From a virus, in IMG/VR virus record IMGVR_UViG_3300034166_001004, positions 1 through 40,340 of that record: a DNA stretch of 40,340 nt. One strand, given 5' to 3'. Of the stretch, positions 14,751 to 40,340 are shown piece by piece. The stretch's first letter is position 1, and each line of letters opens with the position of its first letter. The notes below the pieces were generated by a model. It saw only the letters and a program-made list of their open reading frames with translations. It made no database searches and was not told where the DNA came from. Made by a program: the position numbers and the translations under genes.

Positions 14751-15547
14751 GCCGCGGCCTCCGCGTTAAATTTCCGGCGCTGCTCGGCTAGGCTTCGAGC
14801 CAGCGCGCTGTCAGCGGGTTGCCCCTGCGCAGGCATCGGAACAACTTTGGGCCGGTCGGCCGGAGCGTCGATAAAGACTCCGCGCCAACCGTGCTTGATC
14901 GACTTGCGCAAAGCCTCGACAGCCTGCTGCTCGTTGACTGACGCAAGATCGGCCACAATGCTCTTGGCGGCGAGGGGAGTCAGGGGCGTGCGAATCTCGC
15001 GCCGGTGCTGTGCAAAGTCGGCCCACGCATGCGCCAACCCAAGCCCATGCGGGAGAGCGATGGTCGATGGGTCAAACTTGGCGGCGGGAGCGCGCTTTGG
15101 CTTGGGTGCCGTTTTTTCCGAGGAAGAAGGAGCGAGCGCGTCAGCGCTTATTTCGGTTTTCTTTTGGTTCTTTTGGTTGGGGTGACGCTGCGTCATCATC
15201 GTTGGTGACGTGGCGTCATCATCATTGGTGACGCTGCGTCCTTGATGACGTGGCGTCATCGATGACACGGCGTCATCAATAGCGCTGGTCATGAGGAGCC
15301 AGTCGCACGCCATCCGCTTGCCGTTTTCGACGCGAGAGGAGGCGACCAGCTTGATGATTCCGGCAGCTTGCAGGCGCCCAAGCACGTCGCCCACGCGGCG
15401 CACGCTGATGCCGGTCATCTCGGACAGCTTGCCCTTCGATGCATAGCAATCGAATGGGTCGGCAAGGTCGGCCAGCGCCAACAGCACCAGCTTGTCCATG
15501 GGCGCCAGCTTCTGCGGCCATGCCCATTTGCGCGCCTCTGTGCTCAT
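14747..15547 (-). CDS. Replication initiation protein with winged-helix N-terminus
   Basis: A 266-aa protein. The N-terminus (MDKLVLLALADLADPFDCYASKGKLSEMTGISVRRVGDVLGRLQAAGIIKLV, about residues 17-70) is a winged helix-turn-helix like those of phage replication initiators. The middle (about 90-125), rich in Asp/Thr/Pro/His, is encoded by five tandem repeats that look like iterons, followed by a Gln/Asn/Lys-rich stretch encoded by AT-rich DNA. A Lys/Pro/Ala linker and a helical C-terminal domain follow (LAHAWADFAQHRREIRTPLTP... VEALRKSIKHGWRGVFID), as in DnaT/O-type partners. By analogy with lambda O it would bind the repeats inside its own gene and load the helicase. The helicase gene lies downstream in the same operon. 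Confidence 0.8.
   Translation of the reverse strand: MSTEARKWAWPQKLAPMDKLVLLALADLADPFDCYASKGKLSEMTGISVRRVGDVLGRLQAAGIIKLVASSRVENGKRMACDWLLMTSAIDDAVSSMTPRHQGRSVTNDDDATSPTMMTQRHPNQKNQKKTEISADALAPSSSEKTAPKPKRAPAAKFDPSTIALPHGLGLAHAWADFAQHRREIRTPLTPLAAKSIVADLASVNEQQAVEALRKSIKHGWRGVFIDAPADRPKVVPMPAQGQPADSALARSLAEQRRKFNAEAAA
15148..15277. other. Candidate replication origin: five iterons plus AT-rich tract
   Basis: Five 15-bp repeats start at 15183, 15206, 15229, 15246 and 15263; the spacing is 23, 23, 17 and 17 bp. Their consensus is TGACGYKGCGTCATC, with dyad symmetry (for example GATGACG-TGG-CGTCATC at 15244-15260). Next to them, 15148-15180 is AT-rich on an otherwise GC-rich background and carries two copies of ACCAAAAGA on the minus strand, like a duplex-unwinding element. 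Everything lies inside the initiator coding sequence, as in the lambda origin within gene O. Confidence 0.7.
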
Positions 15548-19544: not shown

Positions 19545-19736
19545 TTACTTGCTGGTGCGCAGTGCGCGCTTCTGCATGAAGGCTTCGAGCGCACGGTGGG
19601 AGATGCGCGTCCCTCGTTGTCCGCCCACCGAGAACGCGGTGAGTTCGCCGGAGCGAATGAAGTTTTCGAGGACGGTGCGGCGGCAGCGGACGGCTTTAGC
19701 CGCTTCGGTGACAGTTAGTACAAGAGGTGTGGTCAT
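19545..19736 (-). CDS. Excisionase-like helix-turn-helix protein (63 aa)
   Basis: 63 aa from ATG at 19736. It has the excisionase/MerR-type winged-helix motif: LTVTEAAKAVRCRRTVLENFIRSGELTAFSVGGQRGTRISHRALEAFMQ. It is the first gene of the minus-strand early operon and faces the plus-strand ribbon-helix-helix gene across 149 bp. In temperate phages such a protein either directs prophage excision or acts as a Cro-like regulator. Longer frames upstream run through the promoter region and are not credible. The length and context support a small DNA-binding protein; excision activity is inferred. Confidence 0.75.
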   Translation of the reverse strand: MTTPLVLTVTEAAKAVRCRRTVLENFIRSGELTAFSVGGQRGTRISHRALEAFMQKRALRTSK

Positions 19737-21461: not shown

Positions 21462-21643
21462 CCACCCTCAACACCCACGCCATCGCGCAGTCCGCGGCCA
21501 CGTTCAACGCGGACCATGACTACGACCTGCAGGCGGCGCTCAAGTTGACCGAGCTGGTCATCAGCCACGCGCACATAGTGCAGCTCGCCCGCAAGGAAGC
21601 CGCGGACCCGCAACTGATGTTGCCCATCGAGGAGGTCGCATGA
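21458..21643 (+). CDS. Hypothetical protein (61 aa)
   Basis: 61 aa from ATG at 21458 (ATGA overlap). It reads MTTLNTHAIAQSAATFNADHDYD, then a helical LTELVISHAHIVQLARKEAADP and a short acidic end. Its stop overlaps the lipoprotein start. The function is unknown. Confidence 0.55.
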   Translation: MTTLNTHAIAQSAATFNADHDYDLQAALKLTELVISHAHIVQLARKEAADPQLMLPIEEVA

Positions 21644-22023
21644 GACCGCTCGCCATCCTCGCGCTGGCCTTGGCTGGCTGCGCCGCCACACCCAACGACT
21701 ACAACACCGAGCAGGCGCTGCCGGTGCTCACGATCGACATTCGGAGCATTCCGACCGGCGCCGTCATCTACATGAACGCCGAGTATGTCGGCACCACACC
21801 GCTGCAGCTCAAGGTCGTCGCCGACAAGTTTGGCAACTGGGAGCGGCCGACACGCATCCAAGCCTATGTCCCGCACGATACGCAGAACTTCGAGGAGGCG
21901 CTGTATCCCTCCGGCTCCCGCGTGCCGTCTCGCCTGCTGCTGCGCGTGCCGCGCTACACGCACTGGTACTCGGCGACGCAACCCAAGGCGCCACAGACCG
22001 CGCAAACTTTGCAAGTGCGATGA
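21640..22023 (+). CDS. PEGA-domain lipoprotein (127 aa)
   Basis: 127 aa starting MRPLAILALALAGCAATPND. Residues 1-14 are a lipoprotein signal peptide with the lipobox ALAGC (Cys14). A PEGA-like beta domain follows (about residues 30-60: LTIDIRSIPTGAVIYMNAEYVGTTPLQLKV), and the rest is beta-rich and basic. It would be secreted, lipid-modified and anchored in the cell envelope. In a lysogenic operon such a protein could block superinfection or change the surface; that is inference. It overlaps both neighbours (ATGA). Confidence 0.75.
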   Translation: MRPLAILALALAGCAATPNDYNTEQALPVLTIDIRSIPTGAVIYMNAEYVGTTPLQLKVVADKFGNWERPTRIQAYVPHDTQNFEEALYPSGSRVPSRLLLRVPRYTHWYSATQPKAPQTAQTLQVR

Positions 22024-22456: not shown

Positions 22457-22547
22457 CGTGTCGAAGCGGAGTTACGTTTTCGACACGTCGCGCAGGACGT
22501 GTCTAAATTTCGGCGTTTCTTCGACACATCGCACCGGACATGTCTAA
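22457..22547. repeat. Repeat cluster after the integrase gene
   Basis: Two 28-bp repeats (22479-22506 and 22520-22547) match at 24 of 28 bases and are 41 bp apart. The first contains the perfect 8-bp dyad GACACGTC (22482-22489)/GACGTGTC (22496-22503); the second contains GACACATC and GACATGTC. Upstream, CGTGTCGAA (22457-22465) is a perfect inverse of TTCGACACG (22479-22487). In all, five related half-sites occur in about 90 bp. They lie between the int stop and the 43-aa gene. Possible roles are an operator for that gene or extra binding sites for a recombination protein. Confidence 0.7.
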
Positions 22548-23665
22548 TTGGTGGACTTATCCCAGACTGACGCGACATCAACCTCGCGGTCGTACACCGC
22601 GTAGAACCTCGCGGTCGTCTGCGGACTCGTATGGCCAAGCATGTGCTGCACCAACGATATCTTGCCGGTCGCATTCAGCATGTCGGAACCGGCCTGACGT
22701 CGCAGCTCGTAGGCAGCCGAGCGCCTGTCTGGGATGAACTCGCGGACCCATGCGTTAAACATCCGCTCCATGAATCTCTTCCGCGCCTCGAAGGTCTTGC
22801 CGGTGATGAGGTAGTCGCTTTCGACCGCGAGCAGCTCCGCGGACATCCACTCCGGCAGGCTCATGACCCTGCCGCGATTGTGGCCGGTCTTGAGCGTGAC
22901 GCCTTCTTCCGGCCGCTCGATGATCACGATGACCTTCCGGTCCTCGCGGTCCTCGATCCAGCTCTTGCGGGCGGCGCCGCACTCCGAGGGGGTCATACCG
23001 AGGTATCGAGTTAGTAAATACGCGCGGCGCGTGGAACCGCCCATGCCCTTGCTCGATGCTTCCATCTTATCGAGGATCTCCGGCGCGATGCGGACGAACG
23101 TGGCGACCGGCGCCTTCATGCCGGTCGTGGCCTTGCAGAACGTGGCGATGTTGTCCGGTAGCTCGAAGCCCTCCCATTCGAGGCTGTGTGCGAAGATCGA
23201 GCGCGTCGAGGCGAGGTTGGTACGGACGGAGTACGGACTGCCCTTGTAGTTGCGCTGGTACTTCGAGATGAGCGCGGGCGTCAGGATCGAGAGCGGCTTG
23301 CTCTTGATGGCCTCGACGTCTTCGGTGCCGAGCGCTACGCGCAGGAACCGGAGCATGCAATTGACATTCTCGTGGCGGCTATTGATCTTGCTGACCATCT
23401 CGTAATGACGGATCGCCGCACCAATTGTCTCGGAGGTATCGCGCCGCGCATGCTCGCGCAGGGCGGTGATGCCCTTGTCCGCGGTGTCATCGAGGATGAT
23501 CTTGGCTTTGACCTTGGCCAGCGCGAGGTCTTCGGTGCCGAGGCTGACCCGCTTCCGCTTCCGGTCGCTAGGGTGGTAGAACTTGAACTGCCAGAATGGG
23601 GAGTCGCCGACTCGGTAGATGGTTCCGGCGATGGCGCTGCTTTTGATCGTGTGTGTGGTTTCCAT
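22544..23665 (-). CDS. int: Tyrosine-type integrase
   Basis: About 373 aa from ATG at 23665. The N-terminal arm-binding-like part (SPFWQFKFYHPSDRKRKRVSLGTED) and an SAM-like core domain precede the catalytic domain. Visible there: beta-hairpin Lys (VTLKTGHNRGRVMSLP), Y-E-L-R-R in place of HxLR, LGHTSPQTTARFYA with His and the nucleophilic Tyr. The first catalytic Arg, normally in a GLRxxE context, appears as Thr in LGMTPSECGAARKSWI. It would integrate the phage at the adjacent attP. The missing Arg could mean reduced or altered activity, or another residue may fill the role. Confidence 0.85.
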   Translation of the reverse strand: METTHTIKSSAIAGTIYRVGDSPFWQFKFYHPSDRKRKRVSLGTEDLALAKVKAKIILDDTADKGITALREHARRDTSETIGAAIRHYEMVSKINSRHENVNCMLRFLRVALGTEDVEAIKSKPLSILTPALISKYQRNYKGSPYSVRTNLASTRSIFAHSLEWEGFELPDNIATFCKATTGMKAPVATFVRIAPEILDKMEASSKGMGGSTRRAYLLTRYLGMTPSECGAARKSWIEDREDRKVIVIIERPEEGVTLKTGHNRGRVMSLPEWMSAELLAVESDYLITGKTFEARKRFMERMFNAWVREFIPDRRSAAYELRRQAGSDMLNATGKISLVQHMLGHTSPQTTARFYAVYDREVDVASVWDKSTN

Positions 23666-23823
23666 GCCGCACTCATGACATGGCAAAATTCACAGTGCAA
23701 GCATGCACTGCCAGACTGCCCAAAAGTCTGGCAGCACTTTGGCGGATCGTCTGGCAGCAAGGGTGCCTCCGCGGGACAATTTTGGACGATGACGGACGCT
23801 TATCTACAGAGGAATTTGGTAAT

Positions 23824-23864
23824 GCCGGTATAGCTCAGCTGGTAGAGCACCTGATTTGTAATCA
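23824..23864 (+). other. tRNA-Thr(TGT) 5' fragment, probable attP core
   Basis: Bases 23824-23864 match the 5' half of a tRNA-Thr: acceptor 5' strand (GCCGGTA), complete D arm (GCTC...GAGC), anticodon stem 5' strand and loop with TGT anticodon at 23857-23859. Identity ends after ATCA, and the anticodon stem, T arm and 3' acceptor strand are not formed. So this is not a functional tRNA but looks like the host identity segment of attP. Confidence 0.75.
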
Positions 23865-23871
23865 TCTGCGG

Positions 23872-23890
23872 ACCCAGCATTCATGCGGGT
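23872..23890. promoter_or_regulatory. Bulged hairpin next to the attP core
   Basis: ACCC-(A)-GCA-TTCA-TGC-GGGT forms a 7-bp stem with one bulge. It lies immediately beyond the tRNA fragment, in the position where the tRNA variable and T-arm would be. A role as a recombination-protein site is possible; so is chance. Confidence 0.3.
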
Positions 23891-23932
23891 TGGCGGGCAC
23901 TCTGGCACCTTATCTGGCAGTGCCGTTTTTGA

Positions 23933-24001
23933 CGGTTTTACAACCGGCGGCGGTCGGAGCGCTACCGATTGCCGTCTGTTTGTGACGCGGCCAAGTGGCC
24001 G
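23933..24001. terminator. Possible terminator hairpins after the late operon
   Basis: Two short perfect hairpins, CGGTT-TTAC-AACCG (23933-23946) and CGGCC-AAGT-GGCCG (23988-24001), lie beyond the 74-aa gene that ends the minus-strand late operon. Neither has a T-tract. They could slow or stop late transcription before int. The rest of 23866-24019 shows no gene. Confidence 0.35.
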
Positions 24002-24259: not shown

Positions 24260-27200
24260 CTACTTTGCGGGCATTACAAGGGGAAATAGGGTTTGGTCTC
24301 TCATCGTGTTGACGAGGCTTGTGTCGCTCGCGGTCAGGATGTTGTCGCGCTTGACCGGATCAGCCTTGGTGTCTGCGAAGCGCTGACGAAACCATGGGAA
24401 ATAGTCCTCGTTGGTTTTCGGGCTGCTGTTGAGGAAATGGTTGCCGTCCTTCGGACCAAGCATGACCCATGAGTAGGCTTCGTGGACGACATACTTGTTG
24501 GAAGCCTTGATTTTTTTGGCCGCGTCAGCCTCAAGTGGCGTCATGAACTTCGCCTGCTGCGGGTCGTCGCCTAGATACACCGCGCCCAGATCGGGGTTGG
24601 TGGAAAGCTCCACGCTGCTGACGATGTGATTGATGCGCCCGCCTTGGAAGTCCGCGGTCTCTGGCAGAACGTGATCGACGTTGAATCCCTTAATGTTCAG
24701 TCCCAGCAGCGCCTCAACAGCGGCCTTTCTTCCGTCAAACGTGTTGTCCAACTTGATCAGGTGCTTGCCGTGAATGCTAGACTCTAGCTTTTTGAAAGCG
24801 CCGGACGGTTTGTATTTGTAAACCTCGCGCGTTTTTCCGTTGGGCTGCTTCTCTTCTACCTTGACCCGCTTGAATCCGTCCAAGTATTTGAAGAACTCTT
24901 CCTCGCGCATCTGAAAGGCTTCGAGAGTGCCTGTTCCGTTTCTGTAGCGAGTTCCGGCATTCCTATAGGTTGTGACGACAGCAGCAAATTCCTCCTCTTC
25001 GGGGGAAATCTTGTATTTTGGCAGCTTGGCCCTCGCGTCATCTATGCTTCTTGTCACGCGCGAAAGCTGCTTGTTGATCGACACCTTGTCCTTGCTGTCG
25101 GAAGACTTTAGCCGCTCCTTCAGCTTGTCGGCCTTGATTGTCGCCGACTTAATTGCCGCCTGATACTCGCGCGAGCGAGCCTGCTTTACTCCCTTGTTGG
25201 CAATGATAAGGAACACGTCCTTTTCTTTCGCTGCGAGCGGCGCGTTGTCGATCTCGTTCGAGATTCGGCGGACGGTGCGTAGGTTTGAGCCGTGCGCCGT
25301 TTCACCCATCAGGTAAACGAGCAAATCTTTGGCGCCGCGAGCGGCCTTGCCTTTCATTGCCTTGGCGGGCTTCCACTCGTTGTTGGCCCAGACAGGAATT
25401 AGCTCACGTCCTGTCAGCGGATCTTGAATCGGAACCTCGCGCAGTGATTTCAAATAAGTGTGCATGACGCCACCCATGTCTCCACCAACGGCTTGCTGCC
25501 TGTCGGCCATGGCAAGTTGAATTGGTTTGCCTGCGTGCTCGGTGGCAATGTCCTTGAACTGTGGACGAACGAGGACATCTGGATCCCACTTAAACGCAAC
25601 AGGCTGTCCTTGGTTCGTGTAAAACTCGACTAGAGCAGGGCGGTCAAAGGTAAAGCTGTCCTTGCTGGCACGCTCTGTGATTTGAGGAACTTGCGATAGC
25701 AGCGGCAGCGCTTCGTTCGGCTTTATTGGCCTCGTCAGTTTTACCATGCCGCCTGAGCCTTGAGCCAGTGCCTGCTTGAGATAGGTGTTGTCGTAGCCGG
25801 TCTGCTGCGAGCCGTCTGTGTCCGGCAGCGCCTGTCCGCGCGTCCTTGCCCCACCTTCGGGCCGACCAGAGCTTGTGTCTTCAAAAAATTTGATGCCGTC
25901 CTCGTTGTTTGTAAACCACCTCTTCCCGCTGTTGTAAGCGTCTATTCGCGCCCTCCGCTCCATGACTGCTTCTGGTGATGCAAAGTAACTTCTTAAATTA
26001 GAATTGAACTCAAACCTGCCAGTCCCTCGATTAAAAATCTCGACGCCAGACAATGTTGGATAAATCGCAAGATGATCTGGACTAGGCTGAACCGTCCAAA
26101 CGTATGGAGCGATCTCTCTTTTGCCTGTCTTGAGCCTGCGCACAGCTTGTCCTTTGGGAGTATCTGTGTTGGCAATAAATTTTCCTCCCTCATACCACTC
26201 ACCATTCTCGCCATACTCTCCTCCAGCTTTTGCGCGGCGTTGCCCCAAATTGGCGCCTTCGTTGTCAGGCAGCGCCTGACCTCTCGCGCCCTGTCCGCTA
26301 GGCGCGCGCGATTGAACACGGACGCTGTCGTACACCGGATGCTCTTTTCCGCGAATACTTATGCGGCCAACTTCTTGACCGAGCACTAGGTCGCCTTTCG
26401 CTGTGGGTCGCAGGCGCGGCTCGCTTGCCTTGTCTGAATACCTTGCAAGCGCGACGCCGCCGCCAAAATCAGAGCGCAGCGAATAAACGTGTCGGCCGCC
26501 GCCCTCAACGGAAACTATGGTAGAAGTCTCTGGCGCATTGTCGGATATCCACTTCCATCCCGCTCTTTGCTTGAACAGGTTCGTTCTATAGGTGTTGCCA
26601 ATACCTATGTCGGAAGACGGACTGTCTACAAACAATCTCGGCTTGCCTGTTGATACATCAATGAATCCAGACGAGAATGTTTTTCCTGTCAAATCGTCGC
26701 CTGTGCTTGCGTCGAAAAATTTACCCCCGCGCTCGTATGACTCGATTGCGAATCTATTGAAAAAAGCAGGGGGAGGAACAAAGCGAGAGCGCCGACCAGC
26801 CTCATCGCCAGAGCCAGTAAACCTTTCGGGAACAACGGCGACATCCGGCATCGCGCTTCCACGCTGCGCCGCGCCACCCGCCGGAAACTGCTGCCGATAC
26901 TGCCCATCCGCCGCTTGGAATCCCTGCGCGTCGGCGTTCTGCCAATTGGTCGCGTTGCTAAAGCCGCGCTTCACTGCCTCCTTGTTCATCCAAGCCGCCT
27001 TGCGGTCGGCATCGAACTGTCCGTATTGATCCAGCGACATGCGACCGGCGTCGTCCGGCAGCGCGTTGATGTTGATCTTGTTGTAGTGCGGGAAGTAGCC
27101 GGTGCCGTGCGGGTCGGCATAGTTGAGCCGGTCGAAGCGGAACGTGCGGACGCTGCCTTGGTTGTTCAGCGTGTGCCACACAGGGTTGCTCGCCTTCTGA

Positions 27201-30200
27201 ACGACGGTGCCAGTGCCGAGCAGTCCGTTGAGGATGTTCTTGCGCGTCACGCCGAGTCCGGTCTCGCCCGCAACGCCGTTTTCGTAGTTGCTGAGAAGTT
27301 GCTTTAAGCCGGTCTCCACGGCGCGGAGGTCGTTGCCAAACTCGCCGAGCTGCTCGTTGTCGATAGCGCGGATCGCCGCGGCGCGAAACGAGTTGAGATC
27401 GATGACCTTGGCCAGCAGGTGGTTCTTGGTGGAGACCGCCCAGCCAAACGGCACCATCTCGCCGGTCTTGGCCTCGACGTTGCCGAGGTTCTTGATCTTG
27501 TAGCTTCCGGCCTCGCCGGTGCCGATGGCGTTGTAGCTGTAGAGGTAGCTGCGGCCTTCGGTGCGACCGGCCTCGAACTCGCGGGCCTTGCTGCGCAGCC
27601 ACTCCGGCACTTGGACAAAGTGGTCGAACTGCAGCGGAAGGGTAGGACCACCAACCTCGACGCGGCCGTTGCTCAATTTCCGCGCGCCCCATTCGTCGCT
27701 GTTCTCGTTGACGAACTTGGTGCGGTCGTTGATGGACTTGATGGTCGCCGCCCTGACCTTCTCTTGAGTGTCGAGCTGCTGCTGCGACTTCGGAACCCGC
27801 GTGCCGTCCGGCCGCTCGATGAACAGGTCGCTCTCGATAACTGTGCCGTTGCGGTTGCTGTAGGTGCGCGTGTGTGGGCTGCGCGCTGCATCCTGAGCCT
27901 TGCCGGTCGGCGTAATCGGCGTGCCGCGCTGTTTGACGGCGCCTTCCTTTTCCAGACCGACCAGATACCGGTCGAAGGTCTTGACGTAGTTGTTGACCGC
28001 CTTGCGCATCTCCGGTGTGTTGAAGAGCGGGTTCTCCACGAAGAGCCGGTTGGGTGTCTCCAGCCGTCCGTTGCCGCGCATCCGAGCGCCCATCGCCTCG
28101 AAGCCTGCGGAGGCGGCGCCAACCGCGCGACTCAGCGGGCCACTGGCACGAATGCCGGAAAGGTTGAGACCCTTGCCAAGCCCGCTGAATGTCTCCGCGG
28201 CAATCTCATCGCGCGCCCAGTCCCAAGAGATCTCGCCCTGCGCCAAGCGCTCTTGGTTCAGCATGTCGGCGCGCTCCTCGATGGCCTGCTTGCGCCAGTC
28301 GGTGTCGTTGGCCCAGCGTTCGCGGATAAACTCCTGCTTCAGCGCCTGCTCGGCCGCTTCGTCGCCACCGGCCGCGGCAATGCGCGTCACCTCATCGGGG
28401 CGCAACACGTTCAATTGGATGCCGGTCGTGCCGTCGCGCACCTCCTGCGTGAGATTCGCTGTGACGTATTCGCGTCCGCGGGCAGCGACTCCATCGGCGC
28501 CATACTGCTGGTCAACCATGGCGCGCATGCCGCGCTTCACCTCACCGCCGAGGATGTCGCTCTTGAGGATGGCGTGGCCGATCTCATGGCCAGCCACGTC
28601 GCCGGTCGCCATCTTGTCTAGGTTAACAAAGATACGCGGGCGCTGGCCCTTCTTGGCGTCAACATAGATGCCGCGCGTGCCGAGACCCATGGCTTCCTTG
28701 ACCGTGGTGTTGATCTCGTAGTCCGTAGCGCGCAGGGGAATAAAGTCCGCCTTGGGCGAGATGACCGACTGCATGCGAGCCATGTTGACCAGTTTGTCGT
28801 GCGGCATCATGTTGGCCATCGATGTGGCGTCGCCGCCGGAGATCTCTGCGTCGGCCAGCATCTTGGCTACCAATGCGTCGTCGAACTCCGACATGCGGCG
28901 CATCTTGCCGCCGATCACACCGGCACCGGCGCCGACAGTCATGATCGCGCCAAGGATCTCCGGCTGGCGCTCTTCGGGCGCAATGGCTGCCAGCGGCACA
29001 GCGATAGGCGCCGTCGCCACCGCTCCGCTCACTGCGTCGTCGGCCGCGCGGAAGACCTGCGTGGCGCCCAGCTTGTCGAGCGTTGCGGCCGACCGGCGGG
29101 CGATGGGCGAAAGTCCCTGCGTCTCGCTGACGCGGCGCAGCGTGCTGTCCGCGGAGGTGAAAAAGCCGTCGTAGGCGCGGCGGTAGCGCTCAGGGATAGG
29201 AGCGCTGCGCAGCTTGCTTGCGGCTTCAACGCGCGATGCGCCGACACCTCCGATGCCGATTTCGCGGGCGAGGATGCTGCCGGTTTCAAGCCCTCGCTCC
29301 GCGCGTCGCAACAGCTTGCCACTGCCTTTAAGCGTGGCCATGGCTGCTGCCGCTTTCCACGATACAGCGCTGAGTGCCGCGGCCTGTCCGGCTTCTCCGA
29401 TGCCGGTTGCGCCCTCGACGCGGTCCACGATGCCGGAGTAAAGGTTCTCCGCTTTCTGTGCAGCTCCACCGGCAACCTTGCCTCCAAGTTTAAGCGGCTT
29501 GCCTGCCAAGCTGCTAACGCGGCGTAAAACCTTCAGTTTGTTTATAGCGCCAAGACCGGCCGGAATAAATGGATTGAGCGGATCGAAAACAATCGCGCTG
29601 CCAAGCACTAGACCCTCGTTGAGCTTCGACTCATCGATGCCCATCTCCGCGCGGCCGTCCGGCAGCGTGCCGATGTTGGTCTCAGTGACGTTCGCCGCCT
29701 GTTGCTGGAACGAGCGGTCGCGGATGAAGCGCTGGTATTGCGTGTCCTCGTCTTCGTTGAGATCCTGCGGTGTCTTCTCGTAAAGTCCCTGAGCCTTGGC
29801 CTGATTGATAGACTCTTCGAGAATGGCCTCATCCTGCTGCGGGTTGCCGGTGAAGCGGTTCTCCGCGGCCAGACGTTGGCGCACCTGATCGTTCATCGCG
29901 CGATTGCGCTGCAGCTCGCGCTGGTTGTCGTCGTAGACATCGTTAGCCCAAGACCACAGCTCGGCGGTGCTGATGCTGGCTTGGCGCATGCCCTCCGCGG
30001 AAGAATTGACCCACTCGTCGTAGGCTTTTGTGCCGCGGGTTACAAAGTCAAAGGGCGCATAGGCGGTCGCCGCCGCCGCTTGAACAAGACCACCGGCAAT
30101 AGCCTGACCGGCCTCGAAGAACTTGCCGACCTTGTCGTCGCGCCGCTGACGCAGCTCGCTGTAGCGCTTCCACTCGTCCTTGGTGGGAATGTAGGAGATG

Positions 30201-30529
30201 TCGCCGACCCGCTCGTAGTCCGCTTGGTCTACCTCCGCGGCGGAAAGCACCTTCTTGGGAGCAGGAACTTGAGGGCCGACCGAGCGGTCAGGGCGAGCGC
30301 CCATAGCGCGGCCAAAAGACGTCTCAGCCGCCACACTGTTCTGCGCCTCTGCAGCGTCAGTCTGCTCGGCTGTCAGCATGGCGGGAGCATCCTGACGCGC
30401 CGCCTCGCGGTTAACGCGGTAGGTGAGGACGTCTTCTTTTTGCGGAATTACGGCGCTCCAATTGACCGGCTTCTGCTGCTGCCGATCAATCTCAGCGACC
30501 TGTTCCGCCGTAAGTGTTTTTGGCGGCAT
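24260..30529 (-). CDS. Giant internal virion / polyvalent protein (2089 aa)
   Basis: 2089 aa, the largest gene. The N-terminus starts MPPKTLTAEQVAEIDRQQQK and is helical and Gln/Ala-rich. An HExxH metalloprotease motif (HEIGHAIL, about residues 641-648) has a possible third ligand further on (WARDEIAAETF). Linkers of the RGQALPD/RGSAMPD type occur at about residues 1221, 1414 and 1563, separating cassettes. The C-terminal half is basic in the middle (KSATIKADKLKERLKSSDSKDKVS) and ends with a folded segment (IKGFNVDHVLPETADF...). Such proteins are packed in the capsid and ejected with the DNA in short-tailed phages; toxic or processing domains are common. Function of the parts is inferred. GC content is lower in the inserted cassettes. 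Confidence 0.85.
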   Translation of the reverse strand: MPPKTLTAEQVAEIDRQQQKPVNWSAVIPQKEDVLTYRVNREAARQDAPAMLTAEQTDAAEAQNSVAAETSFGRAMGARPDRSVGPQVPAPKKVLSAAEVDQADYERVGDISYIPTKDEWKRYSELRQRRDDKVGKFFEAGQAIAGGLVQAAAATAYAPFDFVTRGTKAYDEWVNSSAEGMRQASISTAELWSWANDVYDDNQRELQRNRAMNDQVRQRLAAENRFTGNPQQDEAILEESINQAKAQGLYEKTPQDLNEDEDTQYQRFIRDRSFQQQAANVTETNIGTLPDGRAEMGIDESKLNEGLVLGSAIVFDPLNPFIPAGLGAINKLKVLRRVSSLAGKPLKLGGKVAGGAAQKAENLYSGIVDRVEGATGIGEAGQAAALSAVSWKAAAAMATLKGSGKLLRRAERGLETGSILAREIGIGGVGASRVEAASKLRSAPIPERYRRAYDGFFTSADSTLRRVSETQGLSPIARRSAATLDKLGATQVFRAADDAVSGAVATAPIAVPLAAIAPEERQPEILGAIMTVGAGAGVIGGKMRRMSEFDDALVAKMLADAEISGGDATSMANMMPHDKLVNMARMQSVISPKADFIPLRATDYEINTTVKEAMGLGTRGIYVDAKKGQRPRIFVNLDKMATGDVAGHEIGHAILKSDILGGEVKRGMRAMVDQQYGADGVAARGREYVTANLTQEVRDGTTGIQLNVLRPDEVTRIAAAGGDEAAEQALKQEFIRERWANDTDWRKQAIEERADMLNQERLAQGEISWDWARDEIAAETFSGLGKGLNLSGIRASGPLSRAVGAASAGFEAMGARMRGNGRLETPNRLFVENPLFNTPEMRKAVNNYVKTFDRYLVGLEKEGAVKQRGTPITPTGKAQDAARSPHTRTYSNRNGTVIESDLFIERPDGTRVPKSQQQLDTQEKVRAATIKSINDRTKFVNENSDEWGARKLSNGRVEVGGPTLPLQFDHFVQVPEWLRSKAREFEAGRTEGRSYLYSYNAIGTGEAGSYKIKNLGNVEAKTGEMVPFGWAVSTKNHLLAKVIDLNSFRAAAIRAIDNEQLGEFGNDLRAVETGLKQLLSNYENGVAGETGLGVTRKNILNGLLGTGTVVQKASNPVWHTLNNQGSVRTFRFDRLNYADPHGTGYFPHYNKININALPDDAGRMSLDQYGQFDADRKAAWMNKEAVKRGFSNATNWQNADAQGFQAADGQYRQQFPAGGAAQRGSAMPDVAVVPERFTGSGDEAGRRSRFVPPPAFFNRFAIESYERGGKFFDASTGDDLTGKTFSSGFIDVSTGKPRLFVDSPSSDIGIGNTYRTNLFKQRAGWKWISDNAPETSTIVSVEGGGRHVYSLRSDFGGGVALARYSDKASEPRLRPTAKGDLVLGQEVGRISIRGKEHPVYDSVRVQSRAPSGQGARGQALPDNEGANLGQRRAKAGGEYGENGEWYEGGKFIANTDTPKGQAVRRLKTGKREIAPYVWTVQPSPDHLAIYPTLSGVEIFNRGTGRFEFNSNLRSYFASPEAVMERRARIDAYNSGKRWFTNNEDGIKFFEDTSSGRPEGGARTRGQALPDTDGSQQTGYDNTYLKQALAQGSGGMVKLTRPIKPNEALPLLSQVPQITERASKDSFTFDRPALVEFYTNQGQPVAFKWDPDVLVRPQFKDIATEHAGKPIQLAMADRQQAVGGDMGGVMHTYLKSLREVPIQDPLTGRELIPVWANNEWKPAKAMKGKAARGAKDLLVYLMGETAHGSNLRTVRRISNEIDNAPLAAKEKDVFLIIANKGVKQARSREYQAAIKSATIKADKLKERLKSSDSKDKVSINKQLSRVTRSIDDARAKLPKYKISPEEEEFAAVVTTYRNAGTRYRNGTGTLEAFQMREEEFFKYLDGFKRVKVEEKQPNGKTREVYKYKPSGAFKKLESSIHGKHLIKLDNTFDGRKAAVEALLGLNIKGFNVDHVLPETADFQGGRINHIVSSVELSTNPDLGAVYLGDDPQQAKFMTPLEADAAKKIKASNKYVVHEAYSWVMLGPKDGNHFLNSSPKTNEDYFPWFRQRFADTKADPVKRDNILTASDTSLVNTMRDQTLFPLVMPAK

Positions 30530-39631: not shown

Positions 39632-40340
39632 TTAGGCGATGAGGCCGAGTTCTTGGAGGCGGTCGATGATGGCGTTGACTGCGGTGCGGGCTTCGGCGTC
39701 GATTGTGCCGCCGCCTGTGGGATCGGTGACCGTGGCAGGACGATCCACTGGCGTTGCTCCGTAAAAGCCAAGCAGCGAGGAAGTCGCGCTGCCGATCTTG
39801 ATTCCGCGCAGGGTTCCTGTGCCGCCAGCTTCGGCGTCGATAATGAACTCGTTAGACGCCCAGCGGAAATTGACGCGGTCGAAGTTGACGTTTCCTGTGC
39901 CGCTGACGGTGTTATAGAGGCGAAACGCTTGGGCGTTTGTGCTTCGGCGCATTGCAAGTATATTTGCGGCGTCACGCGCCAAAGTCGTGTCTATATTTGC
40001 GCCAAGCCCACTACCAAATTCTATTGTATTAGCAACTTGCAAACCACTTGCGTTGACTTCCACATTGGCAGTTACAAAGGTAACTGCATTGCTTGTTCTT
40101 TGATAGAATCCGTTGGCTGTTCCTGTTCCAATTAAGATGTTGCCATTAGTGGCAACCGACATTCGCGTAGTGCCATCCGTCTGAAACTCCAGCGCCCTCG
40201 CCGTCCCGCCGCCAGACCCCTTCTCCGTGCCGATTTGAAACACGTTGCTGCTCCACTTGAGGAAGCCGCGTTCGTGGTTCGTGGCGGAGGTGAAGGTGTT
40301 GTAGATGTTGAAGGTTTGGGGGTTGGCCGCATTTCTCTGG
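39632..40340 (-). CDS. Tail fibre protein, C-terminal part (start is at 946)
   Basis: Stop at 39632; open to the right end and in frame with the fragment starting at 946. It contains fibre repeats such as TARALEFQTDGTTRMSVATN and ANTIEFGSGLGANIDTTLAR, and ends with the short helical tail TIDAEARTAVNAIIDRLQELG, often seen at fibre ends. The last 101 bp on this side duplicate the first 101 bp. See the 1-946 entry for function. Confidence 0.85.
   Translation of the reverse strand, partial: QRNAANPQTFNIYNTFTSATNHERGFLKWSSNVFQIGTEKGSGGGTARALEFQTDGTTRMSVATNGNILIGTGTANGFYQRTSNAVTFVTANVEVNASGLQVANTIEFGSGLGANIDTTLARDAANILAMRRSTNAQAFRLYNTVSGTGNVNFDRVNFRWASNEFIIDAEAGGTGTLRGIKIGSATSSLLGFYGATPVDRPATVTDPTGGGTIDAEARTAVNAIIDRLQELGLIA
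40240..40340. repeat. Right copy of 101-bp terminal redundancy
   Basis: It matches 1-101 except at 40293 (A; T at 54). The overlap and the fibre frame show the two ends join. Confidence 0.85.

Follow-up and report, generated by a model that had tools for sequence, protein, structure and literature searches.

A phage-borne 5' half of a tRNA-Thr(TGT) gene lies just upstream of a tyrosine integrase gene, between two sets of repeated motifs, in the 40,340-bp stretch of viral DNA analysed here (the window, an IMG/VR virus record). In our estimation (a probability of about 0.87), this region is the working attP of a temperate phage, whose integrase recombines with the host tRNA-Thr(TGT) gene, the crossover falling in the anticodon loop, so that the lysogen uses a chimeric tRNA with the 5' half and the upstream region supplied by the phage. 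The anatomy of this attP is conserved throughout a family of related phages. The window itself is a circular assembly and a complete genome, as indicated by its ends (positions 1-101 and 40240-40340), which form a 101-bp terminal direct repeat of 99% identity.

Anatomy of the attP region

The attP region abuts the integrase start codon, on the 5' (upstream) side of int. Relatives were collected as about 45 IMG/VR contigs with an integrase homologue, in which the DNA upstream of int was read. This gave a first set of 29 distinct attPs and, in all, 37 distinct att regions, the window being included in both. Arm positions were measured from the tRNA start, at -99 to -97, -76 to -74, +76 to +78 and +88 to +90. 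The features are as follows, with the number of attPs that keep each arm position given for the first set and then for all.

19545-19736, minus strand: 63-aa HTH_17 (winged-helix) protein, probable excisionase/directionality factor (PF12728, E = 1.1e-9; PHROG excisionase families)
22544-23665, minus strand: tyrosine integrase, 373 aa (PF00589, E = 4e-9, above the gathering cut-off; phrog_1 integrase)
23705-23715, minus strand: far-left inverted arm motif GCACTGCCAGA, in near relatives only
23726-23736, plus strand: P-arm site GTCTGGCAGCA at -97 (29/29; 33/37)
23749-23759, plus strand: P-arm site GTCTGGCAGCA at -74 (28/29; 29/37)
23774-23797, plus strand: three GGAC repeats with an exact 10-bp spacing (23774, 23784, 23794), probable excisionase binding sites
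23807-23819, minus strand: degenerate IHF-like element immediately ahead of the tRNA half, with 3 mismatches in the window and perfect in L045-L049
23824-23864, plus strand: tRNA-Thr(TGT) 5' half, the shared attP core, made of nt 1-38 (to 23861) and the stem bases TCA; position and stop point kept in 37 attPs
23855-23861, plus strand: anticodon loop TTTGTAA, probable 7-bp overlap for strand exchange, with a partial dyad around it; tRNA identity stops here in nearly all relatives
23862-23869, plus strand: probable C' core-type integrase site TCATCTGC, an imperfect inverse of the anticodon stem side (a perfect one in L045-L048)
23901-23907, plus strand: P'-arm site TCTGGCA at +77 (20/29; 31/37)
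23913-23923, plus strand: P'-arm site TCTGGCAGTGC at +89, which starts with TCTGGCA (24/29; 24/37)
23946-23976, plus strand: weak terminator-like hairpin beyond the P' arm (1 found, 0.6 expected)

The original prediction had placed at 23824-23864 a tRNA-Thr(TGT) 5' half that stops at the anticodon loop, in an attP beside int and between TCTGGCA arm-like motifs. All of this was borne out: the coordinates and every motif check, the region lies immediately upstream of the tyrosine integrase gene, an equivalent half occurs in 37 distinct attPs, and the motifs are present in related attPs at fixed positions. It had also described the outermost arm copies as perfect inverses over 11 bp. They are complementary at 11 of 11 positions in the window, but the far-left copy exists only in the nearest relatives.

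The tRNA half is about 93-95% identical to known tRNA-Thr genes, and its best match in the plasmid collection is 95%. The window sequence departs from tRNA-Thr after nt 1-38 and the bases TCA (nt 1-41). ARAGORN found no complete tRNA in the window, hence none of the disrupted isotype, and tRNA-dependent lysogeny was rejected for this phage. A split tRNA gene was likewise rejected, since the matching 3' half (T-arm and acceptor) was looked for across the window and none was present. In the phage sequence the anticodon loop is flanked by a partial dyad with the anticodon stem, an arrangement consistent with core-type integrase sites and perfect in L045-L048. The core of these same relatives carries TTTGTTC in place of TTTGTAA: the outer dyad is perfect, and nt 37-38, within the expected overlap, are unlike those of any normal tRNA-Thr.

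The motif TCTGGCA is present in 11 copies in the 40 kb (both strands), five of them inside the 220-bp attP region, where the two GTCTGGCAGCA copies lie 23 bp apart. Only one other 7-mer of the window, belonging to the replication iterons, reaches at least five non-overlapping copies within 220 bp, and such clusters, self-overlap excluded, were found in 0 of 60 random windows. Among the 29 attPs, the median arm motif count at other offsets is 1. The letters of the arms drift among TCTGGCA, TCCGGCA and TTTGGCA while the positions stay fixed. These motifs, on both sides of the core, are candidate arm-type sites.

The GGAC repeats are probably the binding sites of the HTH_17 excisionase-like protein encoded by the linked gene, because they track the type of that gene, which has counterparts near int in the relatives. 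Neither the repeats nor this gene figured in the original prediction. They are present in 13 of 13 attPs that go with the window-type HTH_17 gene and in 0 of 13 that go with the other type, counts drawn from attPs that are phylogenetically non-independent. The 13 attPs linked to the second type carry other repeats instead (CCAGAT every 10 bp in L124, for example). Neighbouring integrase groups that share a tRNA target (L014-L017 versus L019/L045-L049) differ in repeats and HTH_17 type together, so that it is the excisionase, rather than the integrase, with which the repeats go. For comparison, binding of the winged-helix factor RdfS takes up 10 bp per molecule (PMC11963761). At the level of sequence, therefore, the region has the excisionase-like gene and the putative P-arm sites for its product that a lambda-type module includes. 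The covariation between repeats and excisionase type offers a sequence-only route for assigning the sites of directionality factors.

Relatives and their tRNA targets

Integrase relatives were absent from INPHARED at E<1e-5 and from 84,980 GTDB genomes searched with a peptide pattern, and the plasmids of PLSDB gave one weak match and no close relative. Among the attPs from IMG/VR, all 37 have a tRNA 5' half running from nt 1 to the anticodon loop, at the same place. The tRNA match extends to nt 38 in all of them except L045-L048, where it reaches only nt 36. Five tRNA identities are represented, and they differ by integrase clade:

Thr-TGT: window clade, L014, L016, L017, L019, L020, L026, L045-L049
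Lys-CTT: L013/L015
Thr-CGT: L021-L024
Elongator Met-CAT: L055-L058, L108
Phe-GAA: L110-L114, L117, L124, L125

On the maximum-likelihood tree of the integrases the tRNA labels need 4 changes, which is the minimum, with the Lys target nested, on strong support, next to the Thr clade of the window. By this comparison, what stays constant is which part of the tRNA is used; the tRNA itself is switched.

Within the window clade (the window, L003-L011 and L018), the D-loop of the Thr half comes in two alleles, AGCTGG and AGTGG, which are combined with the leader sequences as a mosaic among near-identical phages. A pattern scan of the GTDB representatives for the short-D-loop tRNA-Thr allele of the close relatives gave zero matches. 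A complete tRNA-Thr similar to this one is present on two viral contigs, L068 and L069; these were set aside, being an unrelated prophage region in which no relative of the window integrase was seen. No lysogen, attL or attR was found; the contigs that contain the window core together with the P' arm are all already-known attP contigs.

Proposed integration and alternative readings

The position of the crossover, the protein binding, the transcription and the function of the tRNA in the lysogen are what we infer from this layout. The tyrosine integrase would recombine attP with the host tRNA-Thr(TGT) gene within the anticodon loop, the shared core running from the crossover toward the 5' end of the tRNA. 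The integrase arm domains would bind the TCTGGCA motifs on both sides, its core domain would bind the anticodon-stem dyad, and the small winged-helix excisionase would bind the 10-bp GGAC repeats. After integration, the order would be the host upstream region and promoter, the displaced host 5' half, the phage genome, int, the P arm, and the phage 5' half joined to the host 3' half. The working tRNA of the lysogen would then be a chimera, transcribed from sequence brought by the phage and divergently from int. The sequence itself gives this junction geometry; the promoter is presumed, as no sigma-70-like promoter was recognised.

Several observations weigh against this reading. No integrated copy or junction was found, the best plasmid match of the tRNA half stops at 95%, and L045-L048 are mismatched at nt 37-38. 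In addition, there is no recognisable promoter, the integrases do not have Arg at the Arg I position, and the short-D-loop allele is missing from the GTDB representatives.

The D-arm is contained entirely in the half that the phage carries, which allows a test of its pairing whatever the host may be. In 13 distinct halves, 52 of 52 D-stem cells are paired. Two-sided changes affect six cells (in pairs 11-24 and 12-23), where shuffles give a mean of 2.0, and none of 500 shuffles reached the observed two-sided change count, percentage paired or covariation score. The 3' strand of the anticodon stem, unlike the paired D-stem, varies in the phage sequences. Such a pattern is expected if a working tRNA takes nt 1-38 from the phage and everything else from the host.

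Where the D-arm variants came from can be read in two ways. The half could be a copied host allele, a passive core under no selection of its own, with D-arm variants that mirror different hosts; this reading bears on the origin of the variants and leaves the function of the attP untouched. The variants in question do occur in bacteria, in genes for other tRNAs, and each phage half is close to known tRNA genes, so that this is a serious possibility, if somewhat short of an even chance. It accounts less easily for two Met attPs (L108 and L055), whose integrases are both about 93-94% identical to that of L058 and which differ by a swapped 12-23 pair. Furthermore, the exact short-D-loop Thr alleles occur in no GTDB representative, a mild argument against simple copying from a host. 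The other way is to see the phage half as an evolving half-gene of the phage rather than a copy of a host allele, its function being maintained by compensatory change. Lysogens would live on the chimeric tRNA under phage-supplied transcription, and the family would have switched among five tRNA genes by exchanging the half, by means of a tyrosine recombinase whose active site is without the canonical Arg I. We put this forward tentatively, as a conjecture that could well prove wrong.

The original prediction held that both the 5' half of the hybrid tRNA and its promoter come from the phage. The geometry and the 37 attPs support the first part; the plus-strand promoter scan upstream of 23824 was negative, so that the promoter follows from the geometry alone. 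Since neither the window nor its relatives have a sigma-70-like promoter upstream of the half, it might be thought that the attP works but comes without a promoter, the chimeric tRNA being silent and the lysogen depending on a different tRNA for these codons. The conserved leader may then be an IHF site instead. Indeed, L045-L049 have a perfect IHF consensus within the leader, which may therefore have an architectural role in place of, or besides, one in transcription, and the IHF-like element may overlap an unrecognised promoter. However, a silent copy has no need of a compensated D-stem or of an exact start at nt 1, and the promoters of the host need not match the consensus. We regard silence of the chimera as improbable.

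The position expected for Arg I is occupied by Thr in 30 of 30 family members compared (residues 219-228: GMTPSE, GMTPKE or GLTPKE). Gly-x-Arg stands there in lambda Int, L065 and the prophiGD36-2 integrase, its Arg being the catalytic Arg I of known tyrosine recombinases. This substitution, together with the failure to find integrated copies, could mean that the module is dead and the attP a relic. Yet the integrase is intact, the family is conserved down to 56% identity, and the Lys, Arg II (Y-E-L-R), LGH His and Tyr motifs are retained. Moreover, attP, xis and arms change together and the tRNA targets switch cleanly, all of which makes a dead module very hard to believe in. An invariant Arg (R220) lies five residues upstream of the Thr. 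In the AlphaFold model the N-terminal arm domain is acceptable and the catalytic domain, with a pLDDT of about 40, is too poor to judge R220 as a stand-in for Arg I; a PDB sequence search gave no match.

A role for the half-tRNA at the RNA level (decoy, regulator or split tRNA), apart from integration, is highly unlikely: the sequence and pairing of the half are conserved and a terminator-like hairpin lies downstream, but the genome has no 3' half, five different tRNAs are used, and the flanking arm sites, int and the xis-like gene indicate recombination. The hairpin could stop transcripts that run through the half-tRNA in the free phage.

Known systems and other features of the genome

Elements that carry a 5' tRNA fragment are a known, but rare, class. 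Of 3,919 islands in Islander, 159 have a 5' tDNA fragment and 3,760 a 3' fragment (PMC4383910), which agrees with the original prediction that 5' targeting is less common than 3'-end targeting. As in the Islander 5' tDNA islands, the element analysed here carries the 5' part of the tRNA it targets, and the host 5' fragment would be displaced. Crossovers centred on the anticodon, such as the probable one in the window attP, are common in that collection (PMC4383910). Unlike these islands, the window family is seen only as free phage genomes, is absent from GTDB and has five tRNA targets, with no integrated copy mapped.

According to a review, pTN3-like archaeal integrases use tRNA 5' halves, a situation seldom met in bacteria (PMC8371274). 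There attB is a tRNA 5' half and the recombinant tRNA loses its own promoter, as would be the case here too. In the archaeal elements, int is split on integration and the integrase promoter is said to drive expression of the tRNA (PMC8371274), whereas in the window int is not split and the tRNA half is divergent from it.

The window shares with lambda (NC_001416) a tyrosine integrase, arm-type sites, here putative, on both sides of the core, and a small, here probable, excisionase. It differs in the sequence and number of the arms, in a core that is a tRNA half, and in having no clear IHF site. The lambda-type layout originally proposed therefore stands as regards the arms but not as regards the side of int: the window attP is at the 5' end of the gene and that of lambda at the 3' end. 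The layout also resembles that of IntS/RdfS of ICEMlSymR7A (PMC11963761), with attP upstream of int, five arm-type motifs, here putative, and a winged-helix directionality factor, here probable, at about one molecule per 10 bp; that element is an ICE and the window a phage. Finally, in mycobacteriophages with tRNA-dependent lysogeny (PMC10865867), the phage makes a tRNA contribution on which the lysogen depends, as it would here. Those phages provide a whole tRNA and have a core of about 10 bp, against a 5' half only and a core of about 38-41 bp in the window.

With dozens of comparable attPs and five tRNA targets, the family makes testable some questions usually put to single elements: by what route an integrase moves from one tRNA to another, why the crossover is tied to the anticodon loop, and whether an essential tRNA can have its 5' half and its promoter provided by a phage.

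The gene products of the window include terminase, major head protein, DnaB, an O-like initiator, amidase and S74 tail proteins. Relatives of the capsid or terminase, sought as a guide to the host, were just distant phages of mixed hosts. The nearest phage by TerL and major head protein is C75C1, which has no annotated integrase. Within the O-like initiator gene, positions 15199-15277 hold four 22-nt imperfect direct repeats of the TCGTTGGTGACGTGGCGTCATC type, which look like lambda-style origin iterons. A small predicted lipoprotein with a PEGA domain (21640-22023, plus strand) is encoded in the early plus-strand gene block. On the minus strand, a 2,089-aa ORF (24260-30529) that matches neither Pfam nor PHROG has a HEIGH metalloprotease-like motif and a DHVLPE stretch; its product is possibly a large virion protein.
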